From NCBI RefSeq assembly GCF_018398335.1, contig NZ_JAHBRX010000002.1, positions 1,116,001 to 1,180,000 on the forward strand: 64,000 bases of DNA, written 5' to 3'. Origin of the DNA: Chelatococcus sp. HY11 (lineage in GTDB: Bacteria > Pseudomonadota > Alphaproteobacteria > Rhizobiales > Beijerinckiaceae). Below, in pieces: positions 47,157 through 64,000 of the stretch; position 1 is the stretch's first letter, and every line of letters starts with the position of its first letter. Position numbers and translations under genes: made by a program. The notes below the pieces were generated by a model. It did not search any database and was not told the origin of the DNA. It saw only the letters and a program-made list of their open reading frames with translations.

Positions 47157-47933
47157 ATGATGGTGCCGATGACCAAGGCTTCAGCCTCCCAACAACCGAC
47201 CTACCAGTTTCTCAATCCGAAACGCGAGTCGCTTCCCGAAGCCATTGCCAATGTGGTCGCCGAAGCCATCGCCAGCGGCCAACTCGCGCCCGGTGCACGC
47301 ATCGTCGAGACCGCGTTGACCACCAGCCTCAACGTGAGCCGCGTGCCGGTGCGCGAAGCGCTCAAGGTCCTGCATACCCAAGGGATTATCGAGGGTGGGA
47401 GCCATCGCGGCTTTCGCGTCGCGACCTTTTCGCCGAAAATGGTGCAGAGCGTCCAGGAAGCACGCATCGACCTGGAAACGCTTCTCCTGCGCGACGCGGT
47501 GGCAAACTGGCAGTCAGGGGCCGCGGATGTAAAGGAACTCGATGCTGTGATCGCGCGCATGCGCACGGCCGCCCGTGCCGGGGACTTCGAGGAGATGCTG
47601 CGCGCCGATCTCGCATTTCACCGGGTGATCTGCGATGCGGCGCAAAATCCCATCTTCGCGACCCTGTGGACGGCTATCGCCCGCCATGTCCTCATCATTC
47701 TCAATCTCGCCCGTTTTCGGGATACGGACCTGTCCGTCGTCGTGCGCCGTCATATCGCGCTGAAGGACCAGATCATCATGCAGATCGCCCAGCGCGGCTC
47801 GGTCGCGGACCTGCGCACGATCCTCGAGGCTCATTTCCTGGCCGAGCGCGCCTCGGTGATCGGCGAGCCCGCGGCGGGGAAAGTCAAGCCGCGAGCCAGC
47901 CGCCGTCCACCATCAGGCAAGACCCGGTCGTAA
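47157..47933 (+). CDS. GntR-family regulator, FCD subfamily (module 6)
   Basis: About 258 residues from ATG 47157 (ATGs at 47160 and 47169 also in frame; no strong ribosome binding site). Winged helix: SLPEAIANVVAEAIASGQL, ARIVETALTTSLNVSRVPVREALKVLHTQGII, RGFRVATFS. The FCD domain includes LRADLAFHRVICDAAQNP and VVRRHIALKDQI with ligand-binding histidines. A basic C-terminal tail overlaps the 3' end of the convergent SDR gene by 50 bases. The TTGTTATACAA sites around it, the SDR and the hydantoinase operon suggest it is the module's repressor. Confidence 0.92.
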   Translation: MMVPMTKASASQQPTYQFLNPKRESLPEAIANVVAEAIASGQLAPGARIVETALTTSLNVSRVPVREALKVLHTQGIIEGGSHRGFRVATFSPKMVQSVQEARIDLETLLLRDAVANWQSGAADVKELDAVIARMRTAARAGDFEEMLRADLAFHRVICDAAQNPIFATLWTAIARHVLIILNLARFRDTDLSVVVRRHIALKDQIIMQIAQRGSVADLRTILEAHFLAERASVIGEPAAGKVKPRASRRPPSGKTRS

Positions 47934-48663
47934 ACGAGGCTTCGTCACTCGCGAGGAAGAGGGCCGCCCGTGCCACCTCGTCCGGGCTGCCGAGACGGCC
48001 GAGTGGATGGCGTGCCGCCGAGGCGGCACGCGCTGCCGCCGCGTCCGGCGATCGCTCGAAAGCGCGGGCGAGCAGCGGAGTGTCGATGGCGCCGGGCACC
48101 ACCACATTGACGCGGATGTTCTCCGCCGCGTGGTCCAGAGCCATACTGCGCGCCAGGCTGACGATCGCACCCTTGCTCGCGAGATAAGCCGCGTTGGCCC
48201 GGCCTCCCGCGAATGCCAGTTGCGAGCCGACCAGAACGATCGCCCCGCCGCCGCGCGACCGCATGGCGTGAATGGCGGCCCGGCTCCACAGGAACGATCC
48301 GGTGAGGTTGGTGCGCAGAACCGCATCCCAAGCATCGACCGAGCTGTCCGCGACCGACTGGCCGGTCGACCAGCCGGCCGCCGCAAGCAGGACATCGAAG
48401 CCGCCGAAGCGCTGGCGCGCTGCTTCGGCGTGGGCGTCCACGGTCATCACGTCACCCACGTCGCCGGCAAGGGCAAGCGCCACGCCCCCGGCTGCCTCGA
48501 CCATCGCCGTGGCCCGCACCAAAGCCGCTTCATCCCGATCGACAAGGACGAGCGTCGCCCCCTCCTGTGCGAAGAGAACGGCGCTGGCCAGGCCGATGCC
48601 GGACGCAGCCCCGGTCACAGCCACGACCTTGTCCCTCAGCCGCCCAGGCCTGTCGACCACCAT
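47884..48663 (-). CDS. SDR-family oxidoreductase
   Basis: 259-residue classical SDR: VAVTGAASGIG cofactor loop, DRDEAAL after strand 2 suggesting NAD preference, AAAG in the NNAG position, LVGSQL catalytic Ser, and YLASK with Tyr/Lys. The GSCLMVDGGWLAA ending is typical. It probably oxidises a hydroxyl of a pathway intermediate. It is divergent from the Dpp operon, with a degenerate operator-like site in the shared promoter, and overlaps the convergent gntR 3' end. Confidence 0.92.
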   Translation of the reverse strand: MVVDRPGRLRDKVVAVTGAASGIGLASAVLFAQEGATLVLVDRDEAALVRATAMVEAAGGVALALAGDVGDVMTVDAHAEAARQRFGGFDVLLAAAGWSTGQSVADSSVDAWDAVLRTNLTGSFLWSRAAIHAMRSRGGGAIVLVGSQLAFAGGRANAAYLASKGAIVSLARSMALDHAAENIRVNVVVPGAIDTPLLARAFERSPDAAAARAASAARHPLGRLGSPDEVARAALFLASDEASFTTGSCLMVDGGWLAA

Positions 48664-48697: not shown

Positions 48698-48708
48698 TTG
48701 TTAGACAT
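48698..48708. promoter_or_regulatory. Degenerate TTGTTATACAA-like site between the SDR and Dpp units
   Basis: TTGTTAGACAT matches TTGTTATACAA at nine of eleven positions. It lies 35 bases upstream of the SDR start and 140 bases upstream of dppD, in the only divergent promoter region of module 6. Confidence 0.45.
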
Positions 48709-48848: not shown

Positions 48849-49829
48849 GTGGAGCCAGTCTTGTCCGTCCGCGATCTCCGTGTGGAATTCGCCACCCGGC
48901 GAGGAACCGTTCGCGCACTCGACGACGTCTCCTTCGCAATCGACAAGGCAGAGGTGCTGGGCGTGGTCGGTGAATCCGGGGCGGGGAAATCCGTAACGGG
49001 CGCCGCCGTCATGGGGCTGGTCGCGCCCCCCGGACGCATTACGGCCGGCGAAATAAGTCTGGGAGGTCTCAGGATCGACGGCTTCGACGAGCGCGGCATG
49101 CGCGCCATTCGCGGCAAGCGCATCGGCATGATTTTCCAGGATCCGCTAACGAGCCTCAATCCTCTGATCCGCATTGGCGACCAACTGGTCGAGACCATGC
49201 TGACCCATCTCAACCTCAGCGCGCGCCAAGCTCGGCTCGCGGCCATCGACCTCCTCGCCGAAACCGGCATTCCAAGCCCTGCGACACGCATCGACAGCTA
49301 TCCGCACGAATTTTCGGGTGGCATGCGCCAGCGCGTGGTGATTGCGCTGGCCCTGTGCGGCGAGCCCGATCTCGTCATCGCGGATGAACCGACCACGGCG
49401 CTCGACGTGTCCGTCCAGGCGCAGATCATCGCCCTCATCAAACGTCTTTGCAAGGAGCGCCGTACGGCCGTCATGCTGATCACCCACGACATGGGTGTGA
49501 TCGCCGAAGCAGCCGATCGCGTCGCCGTCATGTATGCGGGACGGGTCGTCGAGGTCGGCCCGGTGGACGACATCGTGCGGCGGCCGCGCCACCCCTATAC
49601 CCAGGGCTTGATGAGCGCGATCCCGCCGCTTGATCATCGGCCCGACCGGCTGGTGCAGATTCCAGGCAGCATGCCGCGGCTGACGGCGATCCCGTCGGGC
49701 TGTGCCTTTCATCCACGCTGCCCGCAGGCTTTCGCGCTCTGCCGTGTCGAGGAGCCGGCGGGGCGCCGCGCCGGCACGAGTTTTGCTGCTTGCCATCTCT
49801 ATTCGCCGGCGGCAGGACGGGTTTCGTGA
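48849..49829 (+). CDS. dppD: Dipeptide/oligopeptide-type ABC transporter ATPase DppD
   Basis: 326 residues from GTG 48849, where homology begins (VEPVLSVRDLRVEF); the open frame extends 36 codons upstream without protein character. Walker A GESGAGKSV, Q-loop FQDPLTSLNP, signature FSGGMRQRV, Walker B LVIADEPTTALD, and the C-terminal oligopeptide-family cysteine cluster region GCAFHPRCPQAFALC are all present. First gene of the long plus-strand operon; its stop overlaps the dppF GTG. Confidence 0.94.
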   Translation: MEPVLSVRDLRVEFATRRGTVRALDDVSFAIDKAEVLGVVGESGAGKSVTGAAVMGLVAPPGRITAGEISLGGLRIDGFDERGMRAIRGKRIGMIFQDPLTSLNPLIRIGDQLVETMLTHLNLSARQARLAAIDLLAETGIPSPATRIDSYPHEFSGGMRQRVVIALALCGEPDLVIADEPTTALDVSVQAQIIALIKRLCKERRTAVMLITHDMGVIAEAADRVAVMYAGRVVEVGPVDDIVRRPRHPYTQGLMSAIPPLDHRPDRLVQIPGSMPRLTAIPSGCAFHPRCPQAFALCRVEEPAGRRAGTSFAACHLYSPAAGRVS

Positions 49830-50692
49830 GCACGGTTGACCTTGTGATCGTATCGGACCTGAAGAAGGAGTTTCGCGCCCGCGGGAACCTCATCTCGATG
49901 CTGCGACGGCGCAGCCGGCCCCCGGTGCTGGCGGTGGATGGCGTGTCCTTCACCGTCGAGCGCGGCAAGACCTTTGCGCTCGTCGGCGAATCGGGATCCG
50001 GCAAATCGACGATCGCCCGCATGGTGGTGGGCCTGATGGCGCCGACCTCAGGCGAAATCGCCATCGACGGCGTGTCCATGACGGCGCCGTCGGCGGCTGC
50101 CGCCCGCCTTGCCTTGCGACGGCGCATCCAGATGGTCTTCCAGGATCCCTATGCCAGCCTCAACCCGCGCTGGCGTGTCGGCGACATCATCGCCGAGCCG
50201 ATTACCGCTTTCGGGCTGTGCGCGCCCGGAGCCGACACCCGGGCGCGGGTCGGGGAACTCCTCGGCCTGGTGGGGCTGCATGCGGATGACGGGCTGAAGT
50301 TTCCGCATGAGTTTTCAGGCGGCCAGCGCCAGCGCATCGCCATTGCGCGCGCGATCGCCTCCGATCCCGCTTTCATCGTCTGCGACGAGCCGACCTCGGC
50401 GCTCGACGTGTCCGTCCAGGCCCAGATTCTCAACCTCATGCGCGATTTGCAGGACCGGCTTGGCCTGACATATCTGTTCATCAGCCACAACCTGGCCGTG
50501 GTGCGCTTCATGGCCGACCGCATCGGCGTGCTCAGCCGCGGCAAGCTCGTGGAAGCCGCGCCCAGCGCGGAGCTGTTTGCAGATCCTCAGCACCCCTATA
50601 CGCGGCAGCTTCTGGCCGCTGCGCCGGATATCGGCGCGGCCTCGTCAACCCTGGCGCTCCCCCACGGCGCCCTCTCACCAGCGGAGATCTGA
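49826..50692 (+). CDS. dppF: Dipeptide/oligopeptide-type ABC transporter ATPase DppF
   Basis: 288 residues from GTG 49826 (GTGA overlap with dppD). Walker A GESGSGKST, FQDPYASLNPRW, signature FSGGQRQRIAIARAI, Walker B FIVCDEPTSALD. Second ATPase of the importer; the C-terminus stops shortly after the HPYTRQLLAA segment and lacks the Cys-rich iron-sulfur-like tail found in DppD. One base separates its stop from the GTG of the hydrolase gene. Confidence 0.94.
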   Translation: MSTVDLVIVSDLKKEFRARGNLISMLRRRSRPPVLAVDGVSFTVERGKTFALVGESGSGKSTIARMVVGLMAPTSGEIAIDGVSMTAPSAAAARLALRRRIQMVFQDPYASLNPRWRVGDIIAEPITAFGLCAPGADTRARVGELLGLVGLHADDGLKFPHEFSGGQRQRIAIARAIASDPAFIVCDEPTSALDVSVQAQILNLMRDLQDRLGLTYLFISHNLAVVRFMADRIGVLSRGKLVEAAPSAELFADPQHPYTRQLLAAAPDIGAASSTLALPHGALSPAEI

Positions 50693-50693: not shown

Positions 50694-52160
50694 GTGGCAG
50701 AGCCCTTTGACTGCATGATCCGCGGCGGCCGTGTGGTCACCGCCTCGGGAACGTTCGACGCCGATGTCGCCATCTCCGGAGAGACGATCGCCGCCATCGG
50801 CCGCGGCCTCGGCGAGGCGAGGCGGGTGATCGATGCGACCGACAAGCTGGTTCTACCGGGCGGGGTAGATCCCCATTGCCATATCGAGCAGATGACGGCC
50901 GCCGGTGTGGTCAATGCTGACACCTTTGCCACGGCGACGACCAGCGCGTTATTCGGTGGCACCACGACGGTCATTCCCTTCGCCGCGCAGCATGTTGGCG
51001 CCAGCCTGAAAGGCACGGTCGCTGACTACCACAGGTTGGCGGAAAAAGGCGCGGTGGTTGATTATGCCCTGCACATGATTCTCGCCGATCCGACGCCGGA
51101 GGTGATTGCCGAGGAGTTGCCGGCGCTGGTCGCGGCCGGCCACAGCTCGATCAAGCTGTTCATGACCTACGATCGCCTGAAGGTTGACGACGAGCGCTTC
51201 CTCGACGTGTTGCTCGCCGCGCGCAAGGCCGGCGCTTTGGTCTGCGTCCATGCCGAGAACCATGGCATGATCGCCTGGATGGGCAAGCGGCTCGTCGAAC
51301 GCGGCTATATCAAGCCGAAATATCATGCGATGGCCCATCCGCGCCTCGCCGAGGTCGAGGCGTTCGGACGCCTCATCGCCATGGCGCGGCTCGTCGACCA
51401 GCCGGTGATGATCTTCCACGTCTCGACGGCGGAAGGGGCCGCCGTGATCCGCCAGGCGCGCGGTGAAGGCACCAAGATCTTCGCCGAGACCTGCCCGCAC
51501 TATCTGCTGCTCGATGCAAGCGCGCTCGACAAGCCGGGGACGGAGGGAGCGAAATGGATGTGCAGCCCGCCGATGCGGACCCAAGGCGACAGCGAGGCGC
51601 TGTGGCAGGCCATCGGGCTGGGCGACCTCCAGGTGGTGTCCTCTGATCACGCGCCGTTCCGTCATGACGAGACGGGGAAGCTGAAAGCCGGCCCGGGCGC
51701 CAATTTCAAGCAGATGGCGAACGGCATGCCCGGCCTGGAGAACCGCCTGCCGATCCTGTTCGACGCCATGGTGTCGCAAGGCCGTTTCACGCTCGAGAAA
51801 TTCGTCGAGGTCACCGCGACCGCCCCGGCCCGGATCTATAATCTCCATCCGCGCAAGGGGACTATCCAGCCCGGCGCGGACGCCGATATCGCCATCTGGG
51901 ATCCCGAACGCGCGGTCACGCTAGCCGATGCCGACGTACATGATGCAACGGGCTATACACCCTACCCCGGCCGCGTGGTGCGCGGCTGGCCGGAAACCGT
52001 GCTGGTGCGCGGCACGGTGGCCATAACCGGGGACAAGCTGCAGATCGCGCCGGGCTTCGGCCGGTTCCTGCCGCGATCCGGCGGCGAGGCGGCGCGACCG
52101 ACGGGGCGGCTCGAGGCAGAACTCGATCCAGCCCGCAATTTCGGCGCGGAACTCTTGTGA
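50694..52160 (+). CDS. Dihydropyrimidinase/D-hydantoinase-family cyclic amidohydrolase
   Basis: 488 residues from GTG 50694, seven bases after GGAG. Binuclear zinc set is complete: His61/His63 (DPHCHIEQ), carboxylated Lys154 (SSIKLFMTYD), His186 (HAEN), His242 (HVSTAEGA) and Asp318 (SSDHAPF). These enzymes open cyclic imides such as dihydrouracil, hydantoins and succinimide. Located immediately after the importer ATPases, it is a good candidate for the first intracellular step of module 6. Overlaps the next gene by four bases (GTGA). Confidence 0.93.
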   Translation: MAEPFDCMIRGGRVVTASGTFDADVAISGETIAAIGRGLGEARRVIDATDKLVLPGGVDPHCHIEQMTAAGVVNADTFATATTSALFGGTTTVIPFAAQHVGASLKGTVADYHRLAEKGAVVDYALHMILADPTPEVIAEELPALVAAGHSSIKLFMTYDRLKVDDERFLDVLLAARKAGALVCVHAENHGMIAWMGKRLVERGYIKPKYHAMAHPRLAEVEAFGRLIAMARLVDQPVMIFHVSTAEGAAVIRQARGEGTKIFAETCPHYLLLDASALDKPGTEGAKWMCSPPMRTQGDSEALWQAIGLGDLQVVSSDHAPFRHDETGKLKAGPGANFKQMANGMPGLENRLPILFDAMVSQGRFTLEKFVEVTATAPARIYNLHPRKGTIQPGADADIAIWDPERAVTLADADVHDATGYTPYPGRVVRGWPETVLVRGTVAITGDKLQIAPGFGRFLPRSGGEAARPTGRLEAELDPARNFGAELL

Positions 52161-53761
52161 GCGGCGACATCGAGGCCGATGTGGTCGTCATCGGAGCGGG
52201 GCCGACGGGTGCCGCCGCCGCCTGGCGACTGGCGGCCGCCGGACTGTCCGTCGTCTGTCTGGAACGAGGCCACTGGTTCGACTACGCCGCCCTCGGTCAG
52301 GGTGAGCCGGGCTATGGGCGCCGGCGCCGCGCCACCTTCAACGACAACCCCAATCTCCGCCGACACAGCGACGACTATCCCGTCGACGACAGCGACAGCC
52401 CGATCAAACCGATGATCGGCAATGCCGTCGGCGGCTCGTCCATCTATTGGGCAGCGCATGTGCCCCGGTATCGTCCCGAGGATTTCCGCGTGCGCAGCCT
52501 CGATAATGTCGGCGACGACTGGCCTATCACCTACGAGGACATCGCGCCGTATTACGACCTCAACGAGACGGAAATCGGCCTGGCATCCTTTCCCGGCGAT
52601 CCCGCCGGTCCGGAGCGCACGGCCGCGCCCCTCTCCATGCCATCGATCGGACCGGCCGGTCGTCGTCTGGCGCGGGCCTTCGACAGTCTTGGCTGGCATT
52701 GGTGGCCCGTCGACCTGGCGGTCGGGCAGGATGCGGACGATCCGCGGACCGCACGCTGTACGCATATCGGCCCATGCGAGCCGGGATGCCCGGCCCGCAT
52801 CCGCGCCGGAGCCGATCGCGCCTACATGAAGAAGGCATTGGCCGCAGGCGCACGGCTCCACACCGGCGCGCGTGTCATCGGGCTGGAGCACGACGCGGCA
52901 CATCGGGTGGCTGCCGCCCTGGTGGCCGACGACAGCGGCACCAGACGGGTGCGCGGCCATCGCTTCATCCTGGCCGCCAATGGCATGGGCACGCCGCGGC
53001 TTCTCCTGCTCTCGGCCTCGAAGGCGTTTCCGAACGGGCTCGCCAACAGTTCAGGGCTCGTCGGCCGCAATCTCATGCTGCATCCCCATGCGAGGGTCGA
53101 CGGATACTTCGCCGAGCGCCTCGGCACCTGGACGCCCGGCCAGAAGGCCGGCATCGTCTGTCTGGAGTTCTATGCGACGCGGGCGGAGAACGGATTTCCG
53201 CGAGGCTTCAAGATGCAACTCAACGCCAGCCCCGCCCCCGCCGACATCGCGCGGAGAAGTGGCAGCGCGGCGCCGCTGCCATGGGGGGCTGGCCATCACG
53301 AAGCCTTCGCGGAGCAGTTCGACCGCATCGCCAGCCTGAATATCTGCATCGAGGACCTCGCCGATCGCGACAACCGCATCACGCTCTCATCCGAGCTCGC
53401 CGACCGCGACGGCCTGCCGGCACCGAAGATGATCTATCGCCTGTCCGATGCCTCCCGCGCCAACCTCGACTTCGCCATGGACCGCGCCGAGCAGGTGCTG
53501 AACATGTCCGGGGCCACCGCCACCGTCCGCGATCCCCTGAAAGCCCAGGCCGGCTTCCACCTGATGGGCACGGCCCGCATGGGCGACGATCCGGACAACG
53601 CCGTCGTCGATGCGTTCGGTCGCTGCCATGACGTCGGCAACCTGTTCATCGTGGATTCCAGCATCTTCGTGACGTCGGGGGCCATGAATCCGACATCGAC
53701 CGCCCAGGCGCTAGCGCTGCGCACAGCCGATCACCTGATCGCGACGCGCCATGCGCCCTGA
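52157..53761 (+). CDS. GMC-family FAD oxidoreductase (gluconate/sorbosone dehydrogenase-like)
   Basis: 534 residues. FAD loop VVVIGAGPTGAAAAWRLA, NAVGGSSIYWAAHVPR, a Cys-containing segment CTHIGPCEPGCPARIRAGADRAY, LAANGMGTPRLLLLS, and the C-terminal GFHLMGTARMGDDPDNAVVD plus SGAMNPTSTAQALALR are typical of the large flavoprotein subunits of membrane gluconate-type dehydrogenases. No Tat or Sec signal is visible and no cytochrome or small subunit gene is adjacent, so it probably works in the cytoplasm. GTG start overlaps the previous stop. Confidence 0.9.
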   Translation: MSGDIEADVVVIGAGPTGAAAAWRLAAAGLSVVCLERGHWFDYAALGQGEPGYGRRRRATFNDNPNLRRHSDDYPVDDSDSPIKPMIGNAVGGSSIYWAAHVPRYRPEDFRVRSLDNVGDDWPITYEDIAPYYDLNETEIGLASFPGDPAGPERTAAPLSMPSIGPAGRRLARAFDSLGWHWWPVDLAVGQDADDPRTARCTHIGPCEPGCPARIRAGADRAYMKKALAAGARLHTGARVIGLEHDAAHRVAAALVADDSGTRRVRGHRFILAANGMGTPRLLLLSASKAFPNGLANSSGLVGRNLMLHPHARVDGYFAERLGTWTPGQKAGIVCLEFYATRAENGFPRGFKMQLNASPAPADIARRSGSAAPLPWGAGHHEAFAEQFDRIASLNICIEDLADRDNRITLSSELADRDGLPAPKMIYRLSDASRANLDFAMDRAEQVLNMSGATATVRDPLKAQAGFHLMGTARMGDDPDNAVVDAFGRCHDVGNLFIVDSSIFVTSGAMNPTSTAQALALRTADHLIATRHAP

Positions 53762-53773: not shown

Positions 53774-53784
53774 TTGTTATACAA
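53774..53784. promoter_or_regulatory. TTGTTATACAA operator-like site inside the operon
   Basis: Exact copy of the 11-mer at 47130, 13 bases after the GMC stop and 36 bases upstream of the amidohydrolase ATG. It suggests an internal regulated promoter. Confidence 0.6.
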
Positions 53785-53819: not shown

Positions 53820-55052
53820 ATGCGTCGCCTGATCATCGCTGATCGTCTCATCGATGCAGTTCATGCGGCGCCGATCGCGCACGGCGCCATCCTCATTGAT
53901 GGCGAGCGCATTCTCGACTGCGGGCGCGCCACCGATATCGGACGGCCGGAGGGCGCTGAGCTCATCGACGCCACGGGTATGACGGTGATGCCGGGCCTCA
54001 TCGATGCCCATGTCCACCTCGCCTACAGTGGTACGCCGCACAAGGCGCTGTTCCGCTCCGAACACGCGGAAATGTCTTATCCGGCAGTGTCTTTGCGGGC
54101 GGCCGCCTACGCCCGCGAGACCCTGCGCCATGGCTTCACCGCGGTGCGCGACATGCATGCGCCCGGCGGCACGATCATCGACCTGCGCGATGCCATCGAC
54201 GCCGGCCATGTCGAGGGGCCGCGCATCCGTGCCTGCGGACGCGGCCTGTCCGTGACCGGCGGCCATATGGACCAGCCCGGCTGGGCGGACCACACCTCGT
54301 TCCGCGACCTCACCCATCCTTGCGACGGCCCGGATGGCTTTCGCCGTGGCGTGCGGGAGGAGATCAAACGCGGCGCGGATTTCATCAAACTGAACACGAA
54401 TGCGGCGATTCACGGTCGGCCCGATCGCTTCTGCCGGCTCGAAATGGCCGAGGACGAAATCAAAGCCGCCTGCGACGAAGCCCATGAGCAGGGCCTGAAG
54501 GTCGCCTCGCATACCTTGGGCGAGCAGCCCCTCGCCGCCACCATCGTCAATGGTGTCGATTGCGTCGAACATGCCCATTTCACCGATGACCGCATCATCG
54601 AACTGATGGTGCGGCAGGGTACGTTCCTGGTGCCCACTCTGCTCGTCAACGAGCGCAACTTCGACTTCACGCCGGAGGCGCAGGGTATCAGCCAGCGCCA
54701 TTGGGAGTGGTTGCTGGCGTCACGCGAGGCGAAGTGGGCGACGCTCGCCAAGGCGCGCGCCGCCGGCGTGCGTATCGGCTGCGGCACCGACGCCGGCTTC
54801 ATGATCCCCCATGGCTCGATGAGCTGGCGCGAGATCGCGCTGCTCGCCGAAGGCGGCCTGACGCCCCTCGAGGCGATCACCGCGGCCACGGCGACCAACG
54901 CCGAACTCCTCGATCTCGACGCCGGCCGGCTCGAAAAGGGGCGGCTTGCGGACATCCTGATAGTCGCCGGCAATCCTCTCGACGACCTCTCGCTGCTCGG
55001 CAACCCCGCCAATCTGCGTGTCATCAAGGGCGGCCGAGACATCCGCCCGTGA
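53820..55052 (+). CDS. Metal-dependent amidohydrolase (imidazolonepropionase/Xaa-Pro dipeptidase-like)
   Basis: 410 residues of the amidohydrolase_1 superfamily: DAHVHLAYSG with metal ligands His64/His66, HGFTAVRDMHAPGG, ADFIKLN with the bridging Lys, VASHTLGEQP, NGVDCVEHAHF, GCGTDAGF and a C-terminal LEKGRLADILIVAGNPL strand. This group includes imidazolonepropionase-like enzymes and cytosolic prolidase-like amidohydrolases that cleave N-acyl amino acids or cyclic imidates. It would act on an amide intermediate of module 6. GGAG is ten bases upstream of the ATG. Confidence 0.92.
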   Translation: MRRLIIADRLIDAVHAAPIAHGAILIDGERILDCGRATDIGRPEGAELIDATGMTVMPGLIDAHVHLAYSGTPHKALFRSEHAEMSYPAVSLRAAAYARETLRHGFTAVRDMHAPGGTIIDLRDAIDAGHVEGPRIRACGRGLSVTGGHMDQPGWADHTSFRDLTHPCDGPDGFRRGVREEIKRGADFIKLNTNAAIHGRPDRFCRLEMAEDEIKAACDEAHEQGLKVASHTLGEQPLAATIVNGVDCVEHAHFTDDRIIELMVRQGTFLVPTLLVNERNFDFTPEAQGISQRHWEWLLASREAKWATLAKARAAGVRIGCGTDAGFMIPHGSMSWREIALLAEGGLTPLEAITAATATNAELLDLDAGRLEKGRLADILIVAGNPLDDLSLLGNPANLRVIKGGRDIRP

Positions 55053-55072: not shown

Positions 55073-55091
55073 TTGTATAATTGTTATACAA
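55073..55091. promoter_or_regulatory. Extended operator-like palindrome TTGTATAA-TTG-TTATACAA
   Basis: Perfect 8-bp arms at 55073-55080 and 55084-55091; the right part is the same TTGTTATACAA 11-mer (55081-55091). It is 21 bases after the amidohydrolase stop and 46 bases before the class V enzyme start. It is the most symmetric copy of the motif. Confidence 0.7.
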
Positions 55092-55136: not shown

Positions 55137-56420
55137 GTGAATGAAGCTGCCGCCCCCATTGTTAGCGGAGATGTCCCTGCCGGTGCGCCGGTGACCGGTG
55201 GCGCCGGCCGCCTCGGCCATGCCGCGCTGGATCTCTGGGCGTTGGAGCCCGGAACGCTGCACCTCAATCACGGTGCCTTCGGGGGGACGCCGCGCGCCGT
55301 GCTTGCCGAGCAGGCGACCTGGCAGGCACGGATGGAGGCCAATCCGAGCCGCTTCTTCATGAGCGAGTTGCCGGGGCATCTACGCACCGCCGCCGCCGAA
55401 CTTGCTGGTTTCGTCGGCACGGCGCCAGAGCGTCTCGCTTTCGTCGAGAACACGACGAGCGGCATCAACGCGGTCATCCGCTCGCTCGACCTGACGACCG
55501 GCGACGAGATCCTCACGACGGACCATGTCTATGGCGCGGTCCGCAACAGCCTGCGTCATATCGCCGATCGCACCGGCGCCCGGATCGTCGAGGCGCCCGT
55601 CGCCATGCCCGTCAGCGACGGCGCCGCGATCGTCGCGGCGCTGGCAGCTCACCTGACATCCAGGACCCGGCTGGTGGTCGTGGACCACGTGGCCTCCGCC
55701 TCCGCCGTCATCGCCCCGGTGGCCGCCGTAGTGGCGCTCTGCCACGGCCGCGGCCTGCCGGTGCTGGTCGACGGCGCCCATGCACCCGGGCTCGTCGATC
55801 TCGACATCGATGCCATCGGCGCCGACTGGTATGTGGGCAATTGCCACAAATGGCTGTGCGCCCCGAAGGGGGCCGCCTTCCTCGCCGTGTCCAGGACATC
55901 ATCGACAAGCGTCCACCCGCTCGCCATCTCGCACGCCTACGGGCAAGGTTTTACCGCGGAGTTCGACAAGGTAGGAACGCGCGACGCCTCGGCGTGGCTC
56001 AGCGTGCCCGCCGCGATCCGCTTTCATCGGGCGCTCGGGGGGCAAGCGCTGCGTCAGCGCAACCGCGCGCTCGCGCATGGCGCCGCCATCGCGATCGCCG
56101 ATGCGCTCCAGAGCCCGCTGGGCGCCGATCCCGCCCTGTTCGCGGCGATGGCCACGATCCGGCTTCCTGGAGAACACCCGGCAACGCGCGGCGAGTTCTC
56201 GCGCATCCATGACGCGATCTTCGCCGCCGCGGGAGCGGAAATCGCGATCACGGCCGTCGCCGGCAGGCTCTATCTGAGGATCTGCGCCCACGCCTACAAC
56301 GAGATAACGGACTATGCCGGCATTGCCGCGGCGACGCTTAAGGCGGTCGCACCGAACACCGCGGAGGGCGCATCTGGCGCCGCGGAGGGTGCTCCTGGCG
56401 CCGCGGAGGTCTTGGCATGA
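55137..56420 (+). CDS. Class V aminotransferase-fold PLP enzyme (isopenicillin N epimerase-like)
   Basis: 427 residues; start GTG 55137 (leader to residue 30 is Ala/Gly-rich). Family features: LHLNHGAFGGTPRAVLAEQ, ENTTSGINAVIRSL, Asp212 (VDGAHAPG) that contacts the pyridine nitrogen, and PLP Lys238 in VGNCHKWLCAPKG. Relatives are epimerases, cysteine-sulfinate-type lyases and aminotransferases. In an operon with cyclic amidases it may racemise or deaminate the released amino acid. The last 20 codons encode AEGASGA/AEGAPGA repeats and the stop overlaps dppB (ATGA). Confidence 0.9.
   Translation: MNEAAAPIVSGDVPAGAPVTGGAGRLGHAALDLWALEPGTLHLNHGAFGGTPRAVLAEQATWQARMEANPSRFFMSELPGHLRTAAAELAGFVGTAPERLAFVENTTSGINAVIRSLDLTTGDEILTTDHVYGAVRNSLRHIADRTGARIVEAPVAMPVSDGAAIVAALAAHLTSRTRLVVVDHVASASAVIAPVAAVVALCHGRGLPVLVDGAHAPGLVDLDIDAIGADWYVGNCHKWLCAPKGAAFLAVSRTSSTSVHPLAISHAYGQGFTAEFDKVGTRDASAWLSVPAAIRFHRALGGQALRQRNRALAHGAAIAIADALQSPLGADPALFAAMATIRLPGEHPATRGEFSRIHDAIFAAAGAEIAITAVAGRLYLRICAHAYNEITDYAGIAAATLKAVAPNTAEGASGAAEGAPGAAEVLA
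56359..56409 (+). repeat. 21-bp tandem repeat in the C-terminal coding tail
   Basis: Two 21-bp units (56359-56379 and 56380-56400) differing at three positions plus a partial third (56401-56409, CCGCGGAGG). They encode AEGASGA and AEGAPGA, an in-frame expansion at the end of the PLP enzyme just before the dppB start. Confidence 0.8.
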
Positions 56421-57403
56421 TCAACTACTTCGCCCAGCGACTGGGCCAGGCGCTGATCGTAATCTTCGTCGTGGCGGTGCTCGCCTTCCTGATGTTCCGT
56501 TTCCTGGGCGATCCCATCGTCGCCATCCTTGGCGCCAATTCCACCGGCCTGCAGCGCGACGCCCTGCGGCGCGAACTCGGCCTCGACGCCCCGCTGCTCT
56601 TCCAGTTCGCCGATTATCTCTGGCAGATGCTGCGCGGCAATTTCGGGTTGAGCTACCGCCTGGGCCAGCCGGTCGGACAGGTGCTGCTCGAGCGGGCGCC
56701 TGCGACGATCGAACTTGCCATGAGCGGCATGCTGCTGTCGCTCGCCGTCGGTATCCCGGCCGGCATCTACACGGCCCTCCATCGCCGGCGCATCTCGAGC
56801 CAGCTCACGCTCGGGCTGTCGCTCGTCGGCATCTCGATGCCCTCGTTCTTCATGGGCATCCTTCTGATCTTCGTGTTCAGCGTCCGGCTCGGCTGGCTGC
56901 CTTCCTTCGGGCGCGGCGAAACGGTGTCGATCGGCTGGTGGAGCACGGGCCTGCTCACCATCAGCGGCCTGAAGGCGCTGGTCATGCCGGCCATCACCAT
57001 TTCAGTCTTCCAGATCGCCATGATCATGCGCCTCGTCCGCGCCGAGATGCTGGAAGTCATGCGCATGGACTATATCCGCTTCGCGCGGGCCCGCGGCCTG
57101 TCGAACCGGGCGGTCCATCTGCGCCACGCCCTCGGCAACACACTCGTGCCGGTCATCACCATCACCGGCCTGCAGCTGGGCTCGGTGATCGCCTTTGCCG
57201 TCATTACTGAACAAGTATTCCAGTGGCCAGGGCTTGGCCTTTTGTTCCTGCAATCGGTGGCGGCAGCCGATGTACCAGTGATCGCTGCCTATCTCGTCCT
57301 GATCGCCCTCGTCTTCGTGGTCATCAACCTGATCGTCGATCTCCTCTACTACGTCATCGATCCGCGGTTGCAGTCGCTGATCACCAACGGATCGAGGGCA
57401 TAG
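56417..57403 (+). CDS. dppB: Dipeptide/oligopeptide-type ABC transporter permease DppB
   Basis: 328 residues, six helices. Starts MINYFAQRLGQALIVIFVV and contains GLDAPLLFQFADYLWQMLRGNFG, the periplasmic segment of DppB, and the ATPase-contact loop DYIRFARARGLSNRAVHLRH. Overlaps the preceding gene by four bases. Gene order D-F-(enzymes)-B-C-A is unusual because catabolic genes split the ATPases from the permeases. Confidence 0.95.
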   Translation: MINYFAQRLGQALIVIFVVAVLAFLMFRFLGDPIVAILGANSTGLQRDALRRELGLDAPLLFQFADYLWQMLRGNFGLSYRLGQPVGQVLLERAPATIELAMSGMLLSLAVGIPAGIYTALHRRRISSQLTLGLSLVGISMPSFFMGILLIFVFSVRLGWLPSFGRGETVSIGWWSTGLLTISGLKALVMPAITISVFQIAMIMRLVRAEMLEVMRMDYIRFARARGLSNRAVHLRHALGNTLVPVITITGLQLGSVIAFAVITEQVFQWPGLGLLFLQSVAAADVPVIAAYLVLIALVFVVINLIVDLLYYVIDPRLQSLITNGSRA

Positions 57404-57404: not shown

Positions 57405-58361
57405 ATGAGCGCCTCCGATACGACCACGATGCGAATGCCCGGTCTCTTCAGCCGTTGCAAGGCATGGCTCGGCGACAGCGATCTCGTCTACGACTTCCTC
57501 CACACGCCGACGGCCATCGTCTCGCTGGTCGTCATCGTGATCTACCTGATCGCCGCCGGCTTTCCCGGGCTGGTAGCACCGCATCCCGTTTTCGATCTGG
57601 CGACCCTGGACTTCAGCAATGCCTTCCTGCCCCCCGCATGGCTGGAGGGGGGCAACTGGCACTTCATCTTCGGTGCCGACGATCAGGGCCGCGACATCCT
57701 TTCTGCCATCATCTACGGACTCCGGGTCTCGCTGTTCGTCAGCATAACGGCCGTCGGCATCTCGCTTCTGCTCGGCGTGGCGCTCGGCCTGATCGCGGGC
57801 TATTGCGGCGGCTGGATCGACGCGCTGATCATGCGCATCGCCGACGTGCAGCTCACCTTCCCGGCGATGCTGGTCGCGGTGATCGTCGACGGACTGGTTC
57901 GGGCAGCCTTCGGGCAGGCGGCGCACGACCGCTTCGCCGTCTGGATCATGATCGTCGCCATCGCCCTCGCCGGCTGGGTGCAATACGCGCGGACCGTCCG
58001 AGGCTCGACGATGGTCGAGGCCGGCCGCGATTACGTGGCCTCGGCGAAGCTCCTGGGACAGTCGGCGGGCTTCATTCTGTTCCGCCATATCCTGCCGAAT
58101 GTCGCCGCGCCGGTTTTCGTCGTGGCGACTATCCAGCTCGCCGTCGCCATCATCCTGGAGGCGACGCTGTCCTTCGTGGGGCTTGGTATCCCGCCGACGG
58201 AGCCCTCGCTCGGCACGCTGATCCGCGTCGGCAACGGTTATCTCCTGTCGGGGGAATGGTGGCTCGCGATCTTTCCGGGGCTGGCGCTCCTCATCCTTGT
58301 ACTCGCCGTCAATCTGCTCGGGGACTTCCTGCGTGACGCGCTGAACCCCCGCCTCAAGTGA
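57405..58361 (+). CDS. dppC: Dipeptide/oligopeptide-type ABC transporter permease DppC
   Basis: 318 residues. Periplasmic loop ends in HFIFGADDQGRDILSAIIYGLRVSL, the DppC hallmark; GRDYVASAKLLGQSAGFILFRHILPN is the ATPase-contact loop and EATLSFVGLGIPPTEPSLGTLI is a late conserved motif. One base separates it from dppB. Confidence 0.95.
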   Translation: MSASDTTTMRMPGLFSRCKAWLGDSDLVYDFLHTPTAIVSLVVIVIYLIAAGFPGLVAPHPVFDLATLDFSNAFLPPAWLEGGNWHFIFGADDQGRDILSAIIYGLRVSLFVSITAVGISLLLGVALGLIAGYCGGWIDALIMRIADVQLTFPAMLVAVIVDGLVRAAFGQAAHDRFAVWIMIVAIALAGWVQYARTVRGSTMVEAGRDYVASAKLLGQSAGFILFRHILPNVAAPVFVVATIQLAVAIILEATLSFVGLGIPPTEPSLGTLIRVGNGYLLSGEWWLAIFPGLALLILVLAVNLLGDFLRDALNPRLK

Positions 58362-58439: not shown

Positions 58440-60074
58440 ATGACAACGGATTTAATATTGTCGAGAGCCCCTTCACGACTGAAGACAAGGCTTCTGCAAG
58501 GCATTTTCGGCGCTGTGCTGCTCGCCGGCTTCGCGGCTTCGCCCGCCGCCTCGACGGCGGCGGCCGCGAAAACGCTGCGCATCGGTGCCCAGGCGGATGC
58601 GGGCACGATGGATCCGCAGGCGCAGAACATCCAGACGACGATTTCGCTCCTCAACATGATCTACGAGCCGCTGGTCACGCGGGACAAATCGCTCGCGAAG
58701 ACCCCCGCCCTGGCGGAGAGCTGGTCGCAGACCGCCCCCGACACCTGGCGCTTCAAGCTGCGGCCGAACGTCAAGTTCCACGACGGCAGCCCGTTCACGG
58801 CCGAGGACGTGGCCTTCACCATCAAGCGGGCGCAGGGCGCCACGTCGCAGTTCACGTCCTATTCGGCTGGTCTCACGCCCAAGATCGTCGATGACCTGAC
58901 CGTCGACATCGTCACGCCGAAGCCCGACCCGCTGCTGCCCGACAAAATCATGAACCTGCCCATCATGAGCAAGCTGTGGACGGAGAAGAATGGCGCGCTC
59001 GAACCGCAGAACCTCAAGGAAAAGAAGGAAAGCTTCACCGCGCTGAACGCCAACGGCACCGGCCCGTACAAGCTCGTGAGCCGCGCGCCCGATTCCAAGA
59101 CGGTGCTGGCGCGGTCGCCGACCTATTGGGGCAAGCTCGACGGCGACATCGACGAAGTCGTCTTCATGCCGATCGGCAGCGATCCGACCCGTATGGCGGC
59201 CCTCGTCTCCGGCGAGATCGACATCGCCATCGATGTCCCCAGCCAGGATGTGGCGCGGCTCTCGCAGAACCCCGATCTCAAGATCTCCAAGGTCGATGAA
59301 TTCCGCACGATTTTCTTCGGCTTCGACCTCAAGAACGACAAGCTGAAATACGCCGAGACAGGCGACAAGAACCCCTTCAAGGATATCCGGGTGCGCCAGG
59401 CCATCAACATGGCCGTCGACCGCGACGCCATCGTGCGCACCGTCATGCGCGGCCTGGCGAGCCCAACCGCCCAGATCCTCGCCCCCGGCAACGTCGGCTA
59501 TGACCCGGCGCTCGACAAGGCGCCCAAGGTCGATCGCGAGGGCGCGAAGAAGCTCCTGGCCGAGGCGGGCTATCCGGAGGGCTTTGCCTTCACGCTGGAC
59601 TGCCCCAACGACCGCTACGTCAACGACGAGCAGGTTTGCAAGACGCTCGTCACGATGCTGGCCCCCATCGGCCTCAAGGCCAATCTCAACTCCATGCCGC
59701 GCGCGAAGTATTTCCCGAAGATCTGGGATCGAGATACTTCGATGTTCATGATGGGCTTCAACTCGCCGTTCTTCGACGGCATGTATGCTCTCGAAACCAT
59801 GCTGATGACCCGCGACGACGCCAAGGGCGAGGGCATCTACAACTACGAGAACTATTCGAACCCCGTGCTCGACAAGGAGATTGCCGCCGCCCGCGACGAG
59901 CTCGATCCGGCCAAGCGCTCAGCCATGATGAAGGCGATCTACAAGAAGATCAGCGACGATACCCTCTATGTATCGCTCTACAATCAGGTTCTCGTCTACG
60001 CGATGCGCAAGGCGGTCGATGCGCCCGTGCGCCCCGACAACATGTTCGAAATCCGCTGGGTGACCATGAAGTGA
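58440..60074 (+). CDS. dppA: Dipeptide/oligopeptide-type ABC transporter binding protein DppA
   Basis: 544 residues of solute-binding family 5. A signal peptide with a long basic n-region precedes cleavage near residue 43 (STAAAA-KTL). KTLRIGAQADAGTMDPQ, WRFKLRPNVKFHDGSPFTAEDVAFTI, TNGTGPYKL-like ANGTGPYKLVSR, and IRVRQAINMAVDRDAIV are typical. It captures a peptide-sized ligand in the periplasm. The ligand is presumably the cyclic or N-substituted amide degraded by the surrounding enzymes. Confidence 0.94.
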   Translation: MTTDLILSRAPSRLKTRLLQGIFGAVLLAGFAASPAASTAAAAKTLRIGAQADAGTMDPQAQNIQTTISLLNMIYEPLVTRDKSLAKTPALAESWSQTAPDTWRFKLRPNVKFHDGSPFTAEDVAFTIKRAQGATSQFTSYSAGLTPKIVDDLTVDIVTPKPDPLLPDKIMNLPIMSKLWTEKNGALEPQNLKEKKESFTALNANGTGPYKLVSRAPDSKTVLARSPTYWGKLDGDIDEVVFMPIGSDPTRMAALVSGEIDIAIDVPSQDVARLSQNPDLKISKVDEFRTIFFGFDLKNDKLKYAETGDKNPFKDIRVRQAINMAVDRDAIVRTVMRGLASPTAQILAPGNVGYDPALDKAPKVDREGAKKLLAEAGYPEGFAFTLDCPNDRYVNDEQVCKTLVTMLAPIGLKANLNSMPRAKYFPKIWDRDTSMFMMGFNSPFFDGMYALETMLMTRDDAKGEGIYNYENYSNPVLDKEIAAARDELDPAKRSAMMKAIYKKISDDTLYVSLYNQVLVYAMRKAVDAPVRPDNMFEIRWVTMK

Positions 60075-60218: not shown

Positions 60219-62315
60219 ATGATGAGTAAGCCGCGTTACCGTATCGGCATAGATGTCGGTGGGACTTTTACAGATTTCGTTCTGGCCGACGTCGTGGGAC
60301 GCACTCTCATGTTCCACAAGGAACCGAGCGTGCCGAGCGATCCTTCGCTCGCGGTCGAACGCGGCATCGCCAGCCTCCTCGCCACGCATGCGATCGCCGC
60401 GCAGGACGTGGAGCTCATCGTCCACGGCACGACGATCGGTCTCAATGCCATCATCCAGCGGCGCGGCGCGCGCATGGCGCTCGTCGTGTCCAAGGGTAAT
60501 CGCGATCTCCTCGAAATCGCCCGGCTGCGCCTGCCGAGTTCCTACGACTTCACCGAGCCGCGCGAAGTGCCGCTCGTGCCGCGCAACCTGGTCTTCGAGA
60601 TATCGTCGCGGATGAAGTCGGACGGCACGCTGCTCGCCCCTGTTGACCCGGCGGAGATCGAAGACCTCGCGGCACGGCTCACGGCCGCAAAGGTTGACGC
60701 CGTCGCGATCGTCCTGCTCAACGCCTACCGCAGCGCGTCGCTGGAGATCGCCGTGGCGGAGGCGCTGCGGCAGCGCCTGCCCGACGTTCTCGTGACGGAG
60801 TCCGGTGTCATCTGGCCCGAGGTGCGCGAGTACGAGCGCGGGCTCGTCGCCGGCCTCAACGCCTATATTCATCCGCTCATGACCCGCTATTTCGACCGTT
60901 TGAAGCAGCGTGTCAGCGACAAGGGCGTGGCGGCGCCGATCTACATCACCGCCAACAACGGTGGCACGCTGAGCCTGGAGACCGCCCGCGCGCGGCCCAT
61001 CGACACGGTCCTGTCCGGGCCCGCCTCCGGCGTCGTCGCCTCGACCCGTGTCGGCACGGCCGCCGGCCGCAAGGAACTCGTCACCTTCGACATGGGCGGC
61101 ACTTCGGCTGACATCGCGGTCTGCCAGACCGGGGTGCCGGAATTCACCACGGCGACATTCGTCGGCGATTTCCCGCTGATGATGCCGGTGGTCAATGTCG
61201 GGGCCATCGGCGCCGGCGGAGGCTCCATCGTCTGGGTCGACGCGCAGGGCTTCCTGAAGATCGGCCCGCTGTCCGCCGGTGCCGACCCCGGGCCCGTCTG
61301 CTACCGCCTGGGCGGCGTCGAGCCGACGCTGACGGACTGCTATGTCGTCCTGGGCATCATTGATCCCAACACGTTCCTCGGCGGCCGCATGGTTCTCGAC
61401 GCTGACGCCGCGTGGCAGGCGCTCGAACGCATCGCCGACAAGCTGGGCCTCGCCGGGGCGGAGCGGGCCGTGGCCGCCGCCGAGGCGGCCGTCCGCGTCG
61501 CCAGCGCGAAAATGGCGACCGAGATCACCAAGCTGCTGGCGACGGCCGGCGTCGATCCCCGCGCCTTCGCCTTGATGGCCTACGGCGGCGCGGGACCGAC
61601 CCACGCCAATCTCCTCGCCGAGGAGGCCGGGCTGACCGCTGTCATGGTGCCGATCGCGCCGGGCACCTTCTGTGCCCTCGGTGCCATCCTCGCCGACGTG
61701 CGCCGCGACTATGTGCGCACGGCACGGCATCTCATCAGTTCCGTGCCGGATGCCGCCACGCAATGGATGGCCCTGACCACAGCCCTCGAGGGTCTTGAAA
61801 GGCAGGCGCGCGCTTGGATCGCTAAGGAGGGCAGCATCATCGGCGACAGTGGCATCGTCGTGTCCTTCAACATGCGCTATCACGCCCAGGCCTACGAAAT
61901 CGAGATCATCGTGCCCGCCGCCTTGCAGCCTGGGCTCGACGCAGCCGGCCTCTGCGCGCTGTTCCATCGCGAGCATGAGCGGCTCTATGGGTTCAGCGAA
62001 CCGACCGTCCCCATTGAGACGACGACGATCCGCCTCGGGGTCATCGGCCGCGTCGCGCCGGTCGCCCTGCCCGAGGTTCCCGCGCGCCATGCAACGCCGG
62101 TCGGGCATCGCACCATCTGGCGCGAGGGCCGTCAGGTCACCGCCGCCGTCTATGCCCGCGCCGATGTCGGCGCCGGGGCGGTGATCCCCGGCCCCGCCAT
62201 CGTCGAGCAGCTCGACACCACCACCTTCGTTCTGCCCGGTTGGCGCGCCGAGGCCGACAGCATCGGCACCCTGCATCTGACGCGCGCGACACCCGCAACC
62301 GAGACCCAGTCATGA
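60219..62315 (+). CDS. hyuA: Hydantoinase/oxoprolinase subunit A family protein (HyuA), second copy
   Basis: 698 residues (ATG 60219 or 60222). ASKHA ATPase signatures: YRIGIDVGGTFTDFVLAD, HGTTIGLNAIIQRRGARMAL, TANNGGTLSLETARARPI, SGPASGVVAS, FDMGGTSADIAV, and GAIGAGGGSIVWVD. It differs clearly from the first HyuA at 25972 (different insertions, different C-terminus), so the pairs are distinct paralogues rather than a recent duplication. It sits 144 bases after dppA and overlaps hyuB by four bases. It probably catalyses ATP-dependent ring opening in module 6. Confidence 0.93.
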   Translation: MMSKPRYRIGIDVGGTFTDFVLADVVGRTLMFHKEPSVPSDPSLAVERGIASLLATHAIAAQDVELIVHGTTIGLNAIIQRRGARMALVVSKGNRDLLEIARLRLPSSYDFTEPREVPLVPRNLVFEISSRMKSDGTLLAPVDPAEIEDLAARLTAAKVDAVAIVLLNAYRSASLEIAVAEALRQRLPDVLVTESGVIWPEVREYERGLVAGLNAYIHPLMTRYFDRLKQRVSDKGVAAPIYITANNGGTLSLETARARPIDTVLSGPASGVVASTRVGTAAGRKELVTFDMGGTSADIAVCQTGVPEFTTATFVGDFPLMMPVVNVGAIGAGGGSIVWVDAQGFLKIGPLSAGADPGPVCYRLGGVEPTLTDCYVVLGIIDPNTFLGGRMVLDADAAWQALERIADKLGLAGAERAVAAAEAAVRVASAKMATEITKLLATAGVDPRAFALMAYGGAGPTHANLLAEEAGLTAVMVPIAPGTFCALGAILADVRRDYVRTARHLISSVPDAATQWMALTTALEGLERQARAWIAKEGSIIGDSGIVVSFNMRYHAQAYEIEIIVPAALQPGLDAAGLCALFHREHERLYGFSEPTVPIETTTIRLGVIGRVAPVALPEVPARHATPVGHRTIWREGRQVTAAVYARADVGAGAVIPGPAIVEQLDTTTFVLPGWRAEADSIGTLHLTRATPATETQS

Positions 62316-64000
62316 AACTCGATCCCGTTCTCGTCGAGATTTTTTTCCACAAGGTGACGGCGATCGCCGAGGAGATGGCGATCGCCCTGCAGCGCACCGC
62401 GCGCACCACCTACGTCAAGGAAGCCGGCGACTTCGGCACCGCGCTCGCCACGCCGGCCGGGCGCTTCTTTGCCTATCCGAAAGTCATGGGTGTGTCGGGT
62501 TTCCTCGACAGCAATGTCGGCCCCGCCCTCGCCCTCATCCCGTCCCTCGAGCCTGGAGACGTGGTGTTGACGAACCACCCCTTCGCGTCCGAGGGGCTGG
62601 CGACCCACATGCCGGATCTCCACCTGATCCGGCCGATATTCTACGAAGGCGAGATCGTAGCCCACGCCTGGGATTTCATTCACTCAGCCGATATCGGCGG
62701 CGGCGTGCCGTCGAGCATCTCGCCGCGTTTCTCCGACCTTTATCAGGAGGGCTTCCAGATCCCGCCGGTCAAGCTCGTCAAGGCCGGCGTGATGAACGAG
62801 GACGTGCTGACGCTGTATCGCGCGAACTGCCGGACACCGGAGGTCAACCTCGGGGACATCAAGGCGATGCTTGCCGCCCTGGCCGTCGGCGAACGGCGCG
62901 TGCATGGCCTGATCGCCCAGCATGGTCTGGAGACCTTCCTGCAGGCGCAGGCGGACCTCGCCGAATACGCCGCGACCAAGGCCCTCGCCGTCCAGAAGAA
63001 GATCCCTGACGGCACCTATGAGTTCTGGGACCTGTTGGACGACGACTTCAATTCCAAGGTGCCGATCCGCGTCCGCTGCAAGCTCACCGCCAATAATGGC
63101 CATGTGCATCTCGACTTCACGGGCTCGGATCCGCAGGTGCTCGCTGCCTACAACATCCCGACCGGCGGCCAGCGCCATCCCTGGCTGACGCTGAAGCTGA
63201 TGCATTTCATCTACAGTCACGACAAGACCATCCCGCTCAACCACGGCATCTTCGAGAACATCACGGTCGAGGCGCCGCGCGGCACCGTCGTCAATCCGGA
63301 GCCGGGCGCGGCTGTCGGTGTGCGCTCGGCCACAGCCATCCGGCTCAACGAAGCCCTCGTCGGGGCGATGGCCAAGGCGCGCCCGGGTCTGATGCCGGCG
63401 CCGAGCGGCGGCATCATGATCCCCTCGGTACTGGTGGAACAGGACGCCGCGACCGGTGCGCGCAATGTGATGGTCCTGCAATCGCTGGTCGGCGGCACAG
63501 GTGCCCGTCAGGGCGCGGACGGCGTCGACGGCCGTGACTCGAGCCTTGCCAACCAGCGCAACACGCCGATGGAGAAGACCGAGGAGGAGGCCGAAGCCAC
63601 CATCGTCGACTACGCGCTGCGCCTCGATTCCGGCGGTGCCGGGCGCTGGCGCGGCGGCACCGGCGTGGTCTTCAGCGTACGCATTGCCCGCCATGGCTCG
63701 GCGGTGCTCGGCCGGGGCATGGAGCGCTTCGTTTTCCGGCCCTGGGGCATGGCGGGCGGCCGGCCGGGCGAGAAGGCCAGGGTCGTCGTCAATCTGGGCA
63801 CGCCTGCCGAGCGCGAGCTCGGCAAGCTCGATATTTTCTACCCCGAGCCGGGAGATGTCGTGACCATCATGACGCCGGGCGGCGGCGGTTACGGTGATCC
63901 TTTGGAGCGTCCCGCCGAAGAGGTGGCCCGCGACGTGGCCTTCGGCTACGTCAGCGCCAAGGCGGCCCGTCGCGACTATGGCGTGGCGATCAGTGGCGAC
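62312..64000 (+). CDS. hyuB: Hydantoinase/oxoprolinase subunit B family protein (HyuB), second copy, runs off the window
   Basis: The frame is open from ATG 62312 to the window edge (563 codons) and no stop is reached. It begins MKLDPVLVEIFFHKVTAIAE and contains GDVVLTNHPFASEGLATHMPD, HAWDFIHSADIGGGVPSS, HLDFTGSDPQVLAAYNIP, and near the end MTPGGGGYGDPLERP, where HyuB proteins are usually close to their C-terminus. So only a short piece should be missing. The first HyuB has SETNDCAHGIF where this one has KEAGDFGTALA, consistent with a different substrate class. Coupled to hyuA by an ATGA overlap. Confidence 0.93.
   Translation, partial: MKLDPVLVEIFFHKVTAIAEEMAIALQRTARTTYVKEAGDFGTALATPAGRFFAYPKVMGVSGFLDSNVGPALALIPSLEPGDVVLTNHPFASEGLATHMPDLHLIRPIFYEGEIVAHAWDFIHSADIGGGVPSSISPRFSDLYQEGFQIPPVKLVKAGVMNEDVLTLYRANCRTPEVNLGDIKAMLAALAVGERRVHGLIAQHGLETFLQAQADLAEYAATKALAVQKKIPDGTYEFWDLLDDDFNSKVPIRVRCKLTANNGHVHLDFTGSDPQVLAAYNIPTGGQRHPWLTLKLMHFIYSHDKTIPLNHGIFENITVEAPRGTVVNPEPGAAVGVRSATAIRLNEALVGAMAKARPGLMPAPSGGIMIPSVLVEQDAATGARNVMVLQSLVGGTGARQGADGVDGRDSSLANQRNTPMEKTEEEAEATIVDYALRLDSGGAGRWRGGTGVVFSVRIARHGSAVLGRGMERFVFRPWGMAGGRPGEKARVVVNLGTPAERELGKLDIFYPEPGDVVTIMTPGGGGYGDPLERPAEEVARDVAFGYVSAKAARRDYGVAISGD

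Follow-up and report, generated by a model that had tools for sequence, protein, structure and literature searches.

We analysed a 64,000-nucleotide stretch of Chelatococcus sp. HY11 (contig NZ_JAHBRX010000002.1; G000:C2:1116001-1180000), referred to here as the window, from a genome of 6.95 Mb on 6 contigs. Its end carries an operon in which the genes of a Dpp-type importer stand among genes for amide hydrolases, oxidoreductases and a class V pyridoxal 5′-phosphate (PLP) enzyme, with a GntR-type regulator gene at its head. We lean towards the view that this operon belongs to a GntR-controlled catabolic regulon of about 20 genes, which imports and takes apart a small ring-amide compound. A plausible substrate is an N-heterocyclic or modified-peptide compound. 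The gene order, its conservation in other genomes, the family assignments and the operator footprint are direct observations.

The features are listed below. Coordinates past the window end are given in the numbering of locus L010, in which position p equals window position 62000 + p.

47122..47140, plus strand: putative operator, with TTGTTATACAA at 47130-47140, 16 bases 5′ of the GntR ATG
47157..47933, plus strand: GntR/FCD regulator; ATG at 47157, frame open from 46926; relatives in L011, L120 and L122
47884..48663, minus strand: SDR oxidoreductase (Pfam/NCBIfam family), tail to tail with the GntR gene
48698..48708, plus strand: degenerate operator with 2 mismatches in the SDR/DppD gap; the equivalent gap has a site with 2 mismatches in L011 and an exact one in L120 and L122
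48741..49829, plus strand: DppD ATPase; the true start may be internal
49826..50692, plus strand: DppF ATPase; GTG at 49826, frame open from 49790
50694..52160, plus strand: dihydropyrimidinase/D-hydantoinase; GTG at 50694, frame open from 50577
52157..53761, plus strand: GMC oxidoreductase; among solved structures, FAD glucose and fructose dehydrogenases are closest in sequence
53774..53784, plus strand: exact operator 5′ of the AmiH gene
53820..55052, plus strand: AmiH, an amidohydrolase resembling Xaa-Pro/Xaa-Arg dipeptidases
55073..55091, plus strand: operator palindrome TTGTATAATTGTTATACAA 5′ of the PLP enzyme gene
55137..56420, plus strand: class V PLP enzyme, a distant relative of Egt2/EgtE and PvdN
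56417..57403, plus strand: DppB permease
57405..58361, plus strand: DppC permease
58440..60074, plus strand: DppA, family 5 solute-binding protein
60219..62315, plus strand: HyuA, alpha type of the hydantoinase/oxoprolinase/caprolactamase group
62312..64000, plus strand: HyuB, truncated at the window edge; its stop is at L010:2357 (window-equivalent 64357)
L010:2354-3484, plus strand, past the window end: PhnW-like class V transaminase
L010:3481-4533, plus strand, past the window end: D-2-hydroxyacid dehydrogenase family
L010:4556-5284, minus strand: RraA-like; operator with 1 mismatch 39 bases upstream
L010:7331-8353, minus strand: Gfo/Idh/MocA; exact operator 30 bases upstream
L010:9327-10271, minus strand: PuuE-like, scoring under the PuuE model cut-off
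L010:10287-10778, minus strand: glyoxalase/epimerase-like
L010:10901-11665, minus strand: second SDR (SDR2); operator with 1 mismatch at L010:11717

A sequence-only reading of the window had named 13 of these genes, all of which are present on the strands it gave and in families that match Pfam and NCBIfam. Its gene order stands, and its operon end does not: HyuB is truncated at the window edge and two more operon genes follow. The transaminase, the hydroxyacid dehydrogenase and the other operator-bearing genes escaped it because they lie past the window end. Counted with the DppF start at GTG 49826 and the dihydropyrimidinase start at GTG 50694, four of the ten junctions from DppD to HyuB overlap by 4 bases, two are separated by a single base and four by 58-144 bases, two of the latter containing an operator; that most neighbours overlap was thus an overstatement. 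The junction between HyuB and the transaminase is an ATGA overlap, and the transaminase gene in turn overlaps that of the dehydrogenase. Judged by strand and spacing, SDR2, the glyoxalase/epimerase-like gene and the PuuE-like gene would form one unit.

The class V PLP enzyme served as query for a scan of genome contigs, which gave at least 80 loci. The operon proteins were mapped on 80 of them, with seven gap-filled, and open reading frames in relatives were chosen by codon-usage score in ten stretches. A core of PLP-DppB-DppC-DppA-HyuA-HyuB-dehydrogenase was present in six of the 80 PLP loci listed, namely L011 (Microvirga antarctica), L012, L013, L014, L017 and L018; L015 is a broken piece of a locus and was excluded from all counts. 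Searching with DppA at E 1e-165, we found matches in 3 of 397 genomes of the taxonomic family and in 3 of 397 of the taxonomic order, the own genome being counted in both. In a sample of the phylum, 37 of 398 passed 1e-120, with identities of 39-46% among the matches listed, the own genome aside. Four DppA matches were new to the set; two were taken as the genomes of L011 and L014 (= G576), and G996 and G836 were added. No DppA relative was found at 1e-150 in a plasmid collection, which may lack records close to the own genome.

Altogether, the gene set is rare but conserved: the core occurs in the own genome and eight others. Because three of these eight relatives (L011, G996 and G836) keep nearly the full order, that is GntR, SDR, DppD, DppF, GMC, AmiH, PLP, DppB, DppC, DppA, HyuA, HyuB, PhnW-like and dehydrogenase, the arrangement appears to be more than chance. 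Within the fetched stretches, to which all gene presence counts refer, the D-2-hydroxyacid dehydrogenase gene was present in all eight relatives, the PhnW-like gene in six, the RraA-like gene in four (L012, L013, G576, G996), the Gfo gene also in four (G576, G996, L017, L018) and the GntR gene in three. The dihydropyrimidinase is outside the conserved core: it was seen in one relative (L014/G576), on the minus strand beside the SDR gene and at a different place. The proposed recurrence of the same gene order held for the core in all eight and for the near-full order in three, and it failed for the dihydropyrimidinase.

A transaminase search at 1e-95 matched 26 of 376 class-level genomes, and the surroundings of 10 of the 26 were fetched. 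Genome G1241, one of the 26, carries a divergent version of the locus, in which PhnW-like (56% identity), HyuA (61%), HyuB (63%), SDR (56%), hydroxyacid dehydrogenase (51%) and Dpp genes (DppB 41%, DppC 44%, DppA 33%) stand together.

A second module, consisting of a class I aminotransferase, a Gfo/Idh/MocA protein, an epimerase and DppD/DppF relatives, is attached to the operon in L013 (356-3549), whereas in L118 (12979-17400) it follows immediately downstream. Its aminotransferase has a relative in 5 of 10 genomes searched, but none in the own genome. In L013, which is without a PhnW-like gene, it lies upstream of DppD and is a possible replacement.

The gap between the AmiH and PLP genes contains the palindromic form of the putative operator. 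The octamer TTATACAA occurs four times in the window against 0.08 expected from shuffles, and TTGTNNNACAA four times against 0.17, with one occurrence (41761) outside the cluster. The exact 11-mer TTGTTATACAA is found four times in the whole genome, and all four sites fall within 23 kb (C2:1163130-1186394), where they precede the GntR, AmiH, PLP and Gfo/Idh/MocA genes. With up to one mismatch there are 24 sites, of which six lie in the cluster: the four exact ones and one each 5′ of the RraA-like and SDR2 genes. All eight relatives have a site with at most one mismatch at operon promoters, but the sites are near-identical in L017 and L018 and in L012 and L013, so that these are not eight independent cases. 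When two mismatches were allowed, sites were located 5′ of GntR, in the SDR/DppD gap and 5′ of PLP in L011, 5′ of PLP in L012, L013 and L014, and in the AmiH-PLP and SDR/DppD gaps in G996 and G836. Further sites precede the RraA-like gene (L012, L013, G996) and the Gfo gene (L017, L018, G996). Ten operon loci of relatives (197 kb) contain six exact sites and 15 with at most one mismatch, two of the 15 being double-counted owing to the overlap of L119 with L120 and of L121 with L122. The corresponding numbers for 73 control loci with PLP-enzyme relatives and no operon (1.08 Mb, similar GC) were zero and six. Since a site lies before its own gene, this GntR protein is the probable binder of the predicted TTGTTATACAA operators. 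An NHL/SMP-30-like frame (L010:8384-9322, plus strand) starts at the operator that it has in common with the divergent Gfo gene and may belong to the regulon.

Conserved order and shared operator both speak for the earlier proposal of a single, jointly regulated pathway that has a GntR regulator of its own. They also bear on the possibility that there is no single pathway and that separate genes for scavenging amides, sugars and amino acids have gathered around a single importer on a large replicon of the repABC type. Contig C2 (1.92 Mb) does look like such a replicon: roughly 11 kb beyond the dehydrogenase gene it has a repC-type replication gene (L010:15718-17187, minus strand). Genes of these kinds are plentiful in the genome, with 22 Hydantoinase_B matches, and the dihydropyrimidinase, GMC and AmiH genes vary between relatives. 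A chance gathering would nevertheless have to account for a core kept in 8/8 relatives and an order kept in 3/8, for overlapping genes and for an exact operator restricted to the cluster, and we regard it as rather unlikely.

The importer has the components of a Dpp/Opp-type ATP-binding cassette (ABC) system: a family 5 binding protein, two permeases and two oligo_HPY ATPases. By sequence, the nearest solved chain to DppA is 5u4o, a binding protein without a named ligand. Nickel or staphylopine uptake was considered and rejected, as DppA scored far under the respective cut-offs (143.9 against 600, 134.5 against 393 and 100.5 against 800). The dihydropyrimidinase exceeded two curated cut-offs (TIGR02033, 586.6 against 393.25; PRK13404, 706.9 against 647). 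Ergothioneine-type hydantoin use was also rejected for this enzyme, which scored 230 and 198.5 where the ErtD models require 650 and 600. AmiH stayed below the Xaa-Pro dipeptidase model NF051886 (298.6 against 500). Both hydrolases keep the motifs of their superfamily whose residues we take to be metal ligands. The nearest solved relatives of the PLP enzyme by sequence are carbon-sulphur (C-S) lyases of the Egt2 type (Egt2, 121.3 bits), and its score for the EgtE C-S lyase model TIGR04343 was 67.2 against a cut-off of 400. The sequence-only reading had it racemise or deaminate an amino acid, which would be a tentative assignment. The D-2-hydroxyacid dehydrogenase has CtBP as its nearest solved relative by sequence and matches PGDH/2-hydroxyacid dehydrogenase models.

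The PhnW-like transaminase exceeded the cut-offs of two 2-aminoethylphosphonate (AEP) transaminase models, PRK13479 (412.7 against 296) and TIGR03301 (382.1 against 360.8), but missed that of TIGR02326 (381.9 against 400.8). Its FR[IV]G motif still has the arginine, and the NKC lysine is likewise retained. The operon might accordingly serve phosphonate use: the importer would take up an AEP amide or a hydroxylated relative, the hydrolases would free it, PhnW would yield phosphonoacetaldehyde and the dehydrogenase-like protein would be a PbfF-type racemase. A PhnW accompanied by a pfam02826 protein is a recognised indication of phosphonate use (PMC12366243, PMC8154272, PMC10590968), and PbfF is a pfam02826 protein found in phnW clusters of Alphaproteobacteria (PMC12366243). 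Alphaproteobacterial AEP clusters of the phnWYA type with pbfF share with our operon a PhnW-family transaminase and a pfam02826-type dehydrogenase homologue. Unlike in those clusters, PhnX and PhnA are not adjacent here, a Dpp importer and HyuAB stand instead, and the transaminase falls in a separate clade.

PhnX and PhnA were searched at E 1e-20 in the nine operon genomes, for four of which completeness is not given; carbon-phosphorus (C-P) lyase was not searched. PhnX was found in one genome, the own one, where the match is broken across two frames, and PhnA in two, none of the three matches lying at the operon, and neither was found in the remaining six. The split match, a phosphonatase-like TIGR01422 hit at L130:9850-10598 (G000:C2:708850-709598), lies inside another Dpp-type operon. 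In an alignment of 30 transaminases (28 from loci and two solved chains), seven operon enzymes and that of G1241 formed a clade of eight rows with support of 100/99, which L164 joined at 98/95 (midpoint root). Five motifs are shared by all eight rows: SPNA, SAT (in a GSGTF-type stretch), ETGTG, VASFG and FPGR. Three of them, SPNA, SAT in this position and VASFG, are absent from the other 22, in which ETGTG is found twice (L146, L150) and FPGR once (L164); only L129 of the comparison loci is known to adjoin phnA. As six of the nine genomes gave no PhnX or PhnA match and the transaminases group apart from the others with altered motifs, phosphonate breakdown is disfavoured and, in our estimate, quite unlikely. 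At L164 (8724-17990) the more distant PhnW-like gene has DppBCA and two gamma-glutamyltranspeptidase genes as neighbours, and an arginase-family gene is close by.

HyuB exceeded the Pfam Hydantoinase_B cut-off (465.9 against 26.8 bits) and, with its HyuA partner adjacent, belongs to the HyuA/HyuB superfamily; a second HyuA-HyuB pair is located in the same window (25972-29738). HyuAB is thus a member of the oxoprolinase/hydantoinase/carboxylase group, and we read it as a candidate enzyme for opening a lactam or imide. It could instead be an ATP-dependent carboxylase, in an operon degrading a ketone- or polyol-containing compound brought in by a peptide-type importer, with the amidohydrolases as accessory enzymes. 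HyuA and HyuB give 266 and 106.4 bits with models of acetophenone carboxylase, HyuA also matches solved carboxylase subunits, and many alcohol-oxidising families occur in the operon. On the other hand, of all models and solved chains HyuA is best matched by caprolactamase, 5-oxoprolinase and N-methylhydantoinase, and an extra carboxylase subunit was not seen among the annotated operon genes; we consider a carboxylase pathway unlikely.

Several results weigh against a GntR-controlled ring-amide regulon. HyuA and HyuB reached 505.6 and 234.4 bits against 1000 each for the caprolactamase models NF050156 and NF050157, scores so far below the cut-offs that HyuAB may be either a hydrolase or a carboxylase. 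The PhnW-like gene is not at L012 and L013, the GntR gene is not in the fetched loci of five of the eight relatives, and GMC and AmiH are at the conserved position in only three. The two fetched stretches of G1241 contained no relative of the PLP enzyme, GntR, RraA, Gfo, AmiH, GMC or dihydropyrimidinase, and no operator at two mismatches or fewer. A reversed control pattern gave 26 sites with up to one mismatch genome-wide against 24 for the operator; single-mismatch sites outside the cluster therefore look like noise, and only exact matches are distinctive.

For the ring-amide pathway that we nevertheless favour, a catabolic direction, the order of the steps and each reaction are predicted from the enzyme families. 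The Dpp-type importer (DppA, B, C, D and F) would take up a small amide-containing compound, and HyuAB would open its ring amide, a lactam or imide, with ATP. AmiH, and in the own genome also the zinc-type hydantoinase, could hydrolyse further amide bonds. The PhnW-like enzyme would transaminate the freed amine, and the D-2-hydroxyacid dehydrogenase, whose gene overlaps that of the transaminase, would handle the oxo product. The GMC, SDR and Gfo/Idh/MocA enzymes may oxidise hydroxyl groups; the Egt2-like PLP enzyme may act on an amino-acid part, conceivably as a lyase. What is left of the oxo acid may be split towards pyruvate by the RraA-like protein, perhaps through aldol cleavage. GntR presumably represses from the TTGTTATACAA operators until an inducer binds. 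More tentatively, the substrate may be a natural ring-amide with hydroxyl and amino groups, the PhnW-derived transaminase having moved from phosphonates to the product of ATP-dependent lactam opening, so that HyuAB, the PhnW-like enzyme and the hydroxyacid dehydrogenase would be the signature module.

The best functional parallel is caprolactam breakdown in Pseudomonas jessenii, which runs through caprolactamase, a pyruvate-using omega-aminotransferase and 6-oxohexanoate dehydrogenase in series (PMC6061476). Likeness to that cluster lies in the combination of a HyuAB-type ATP-dependent lactamase, a pyruvate-using PLP transaminase and a dehydrogenase. Our operon differs in having a PhnW-like class V transaminase, a hydroxyacid instead of an aldehyde dehydrogenase, an added Dpp importer and hydantoinase, dipeptidase-like and GMC enzymes, and in its caprolactamase scores (505.6/234.4 against 1000 bits).

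Hydantoin utilisation (hyu) operons combine D-hydantoinase-type with HyuAB-type enzymes, as the operon here does. Unlike in hyu operons, carbamoylase and hydantoin racemase were not seen among the annotated genes, and the hydantoinase was not found in the fetched loci of seven of the eight relatives. No description of this gene combination was found in the open-access literature by titles and abstract starts, a search that left subscription papers mostly outside and did not cover supplements. As far as these searches go, the enzyme kinds are all known, and the assembly and its operator are undescribed.

An AEP transaminase annotation on genes of this transaminase clade is not by itself reason to count them as marking phosphonate degraders. 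The gene set is bounded and has its own operator, and screening its one binding protein for ligands could uncover a natural nutrient and enzyme specificities that are new.

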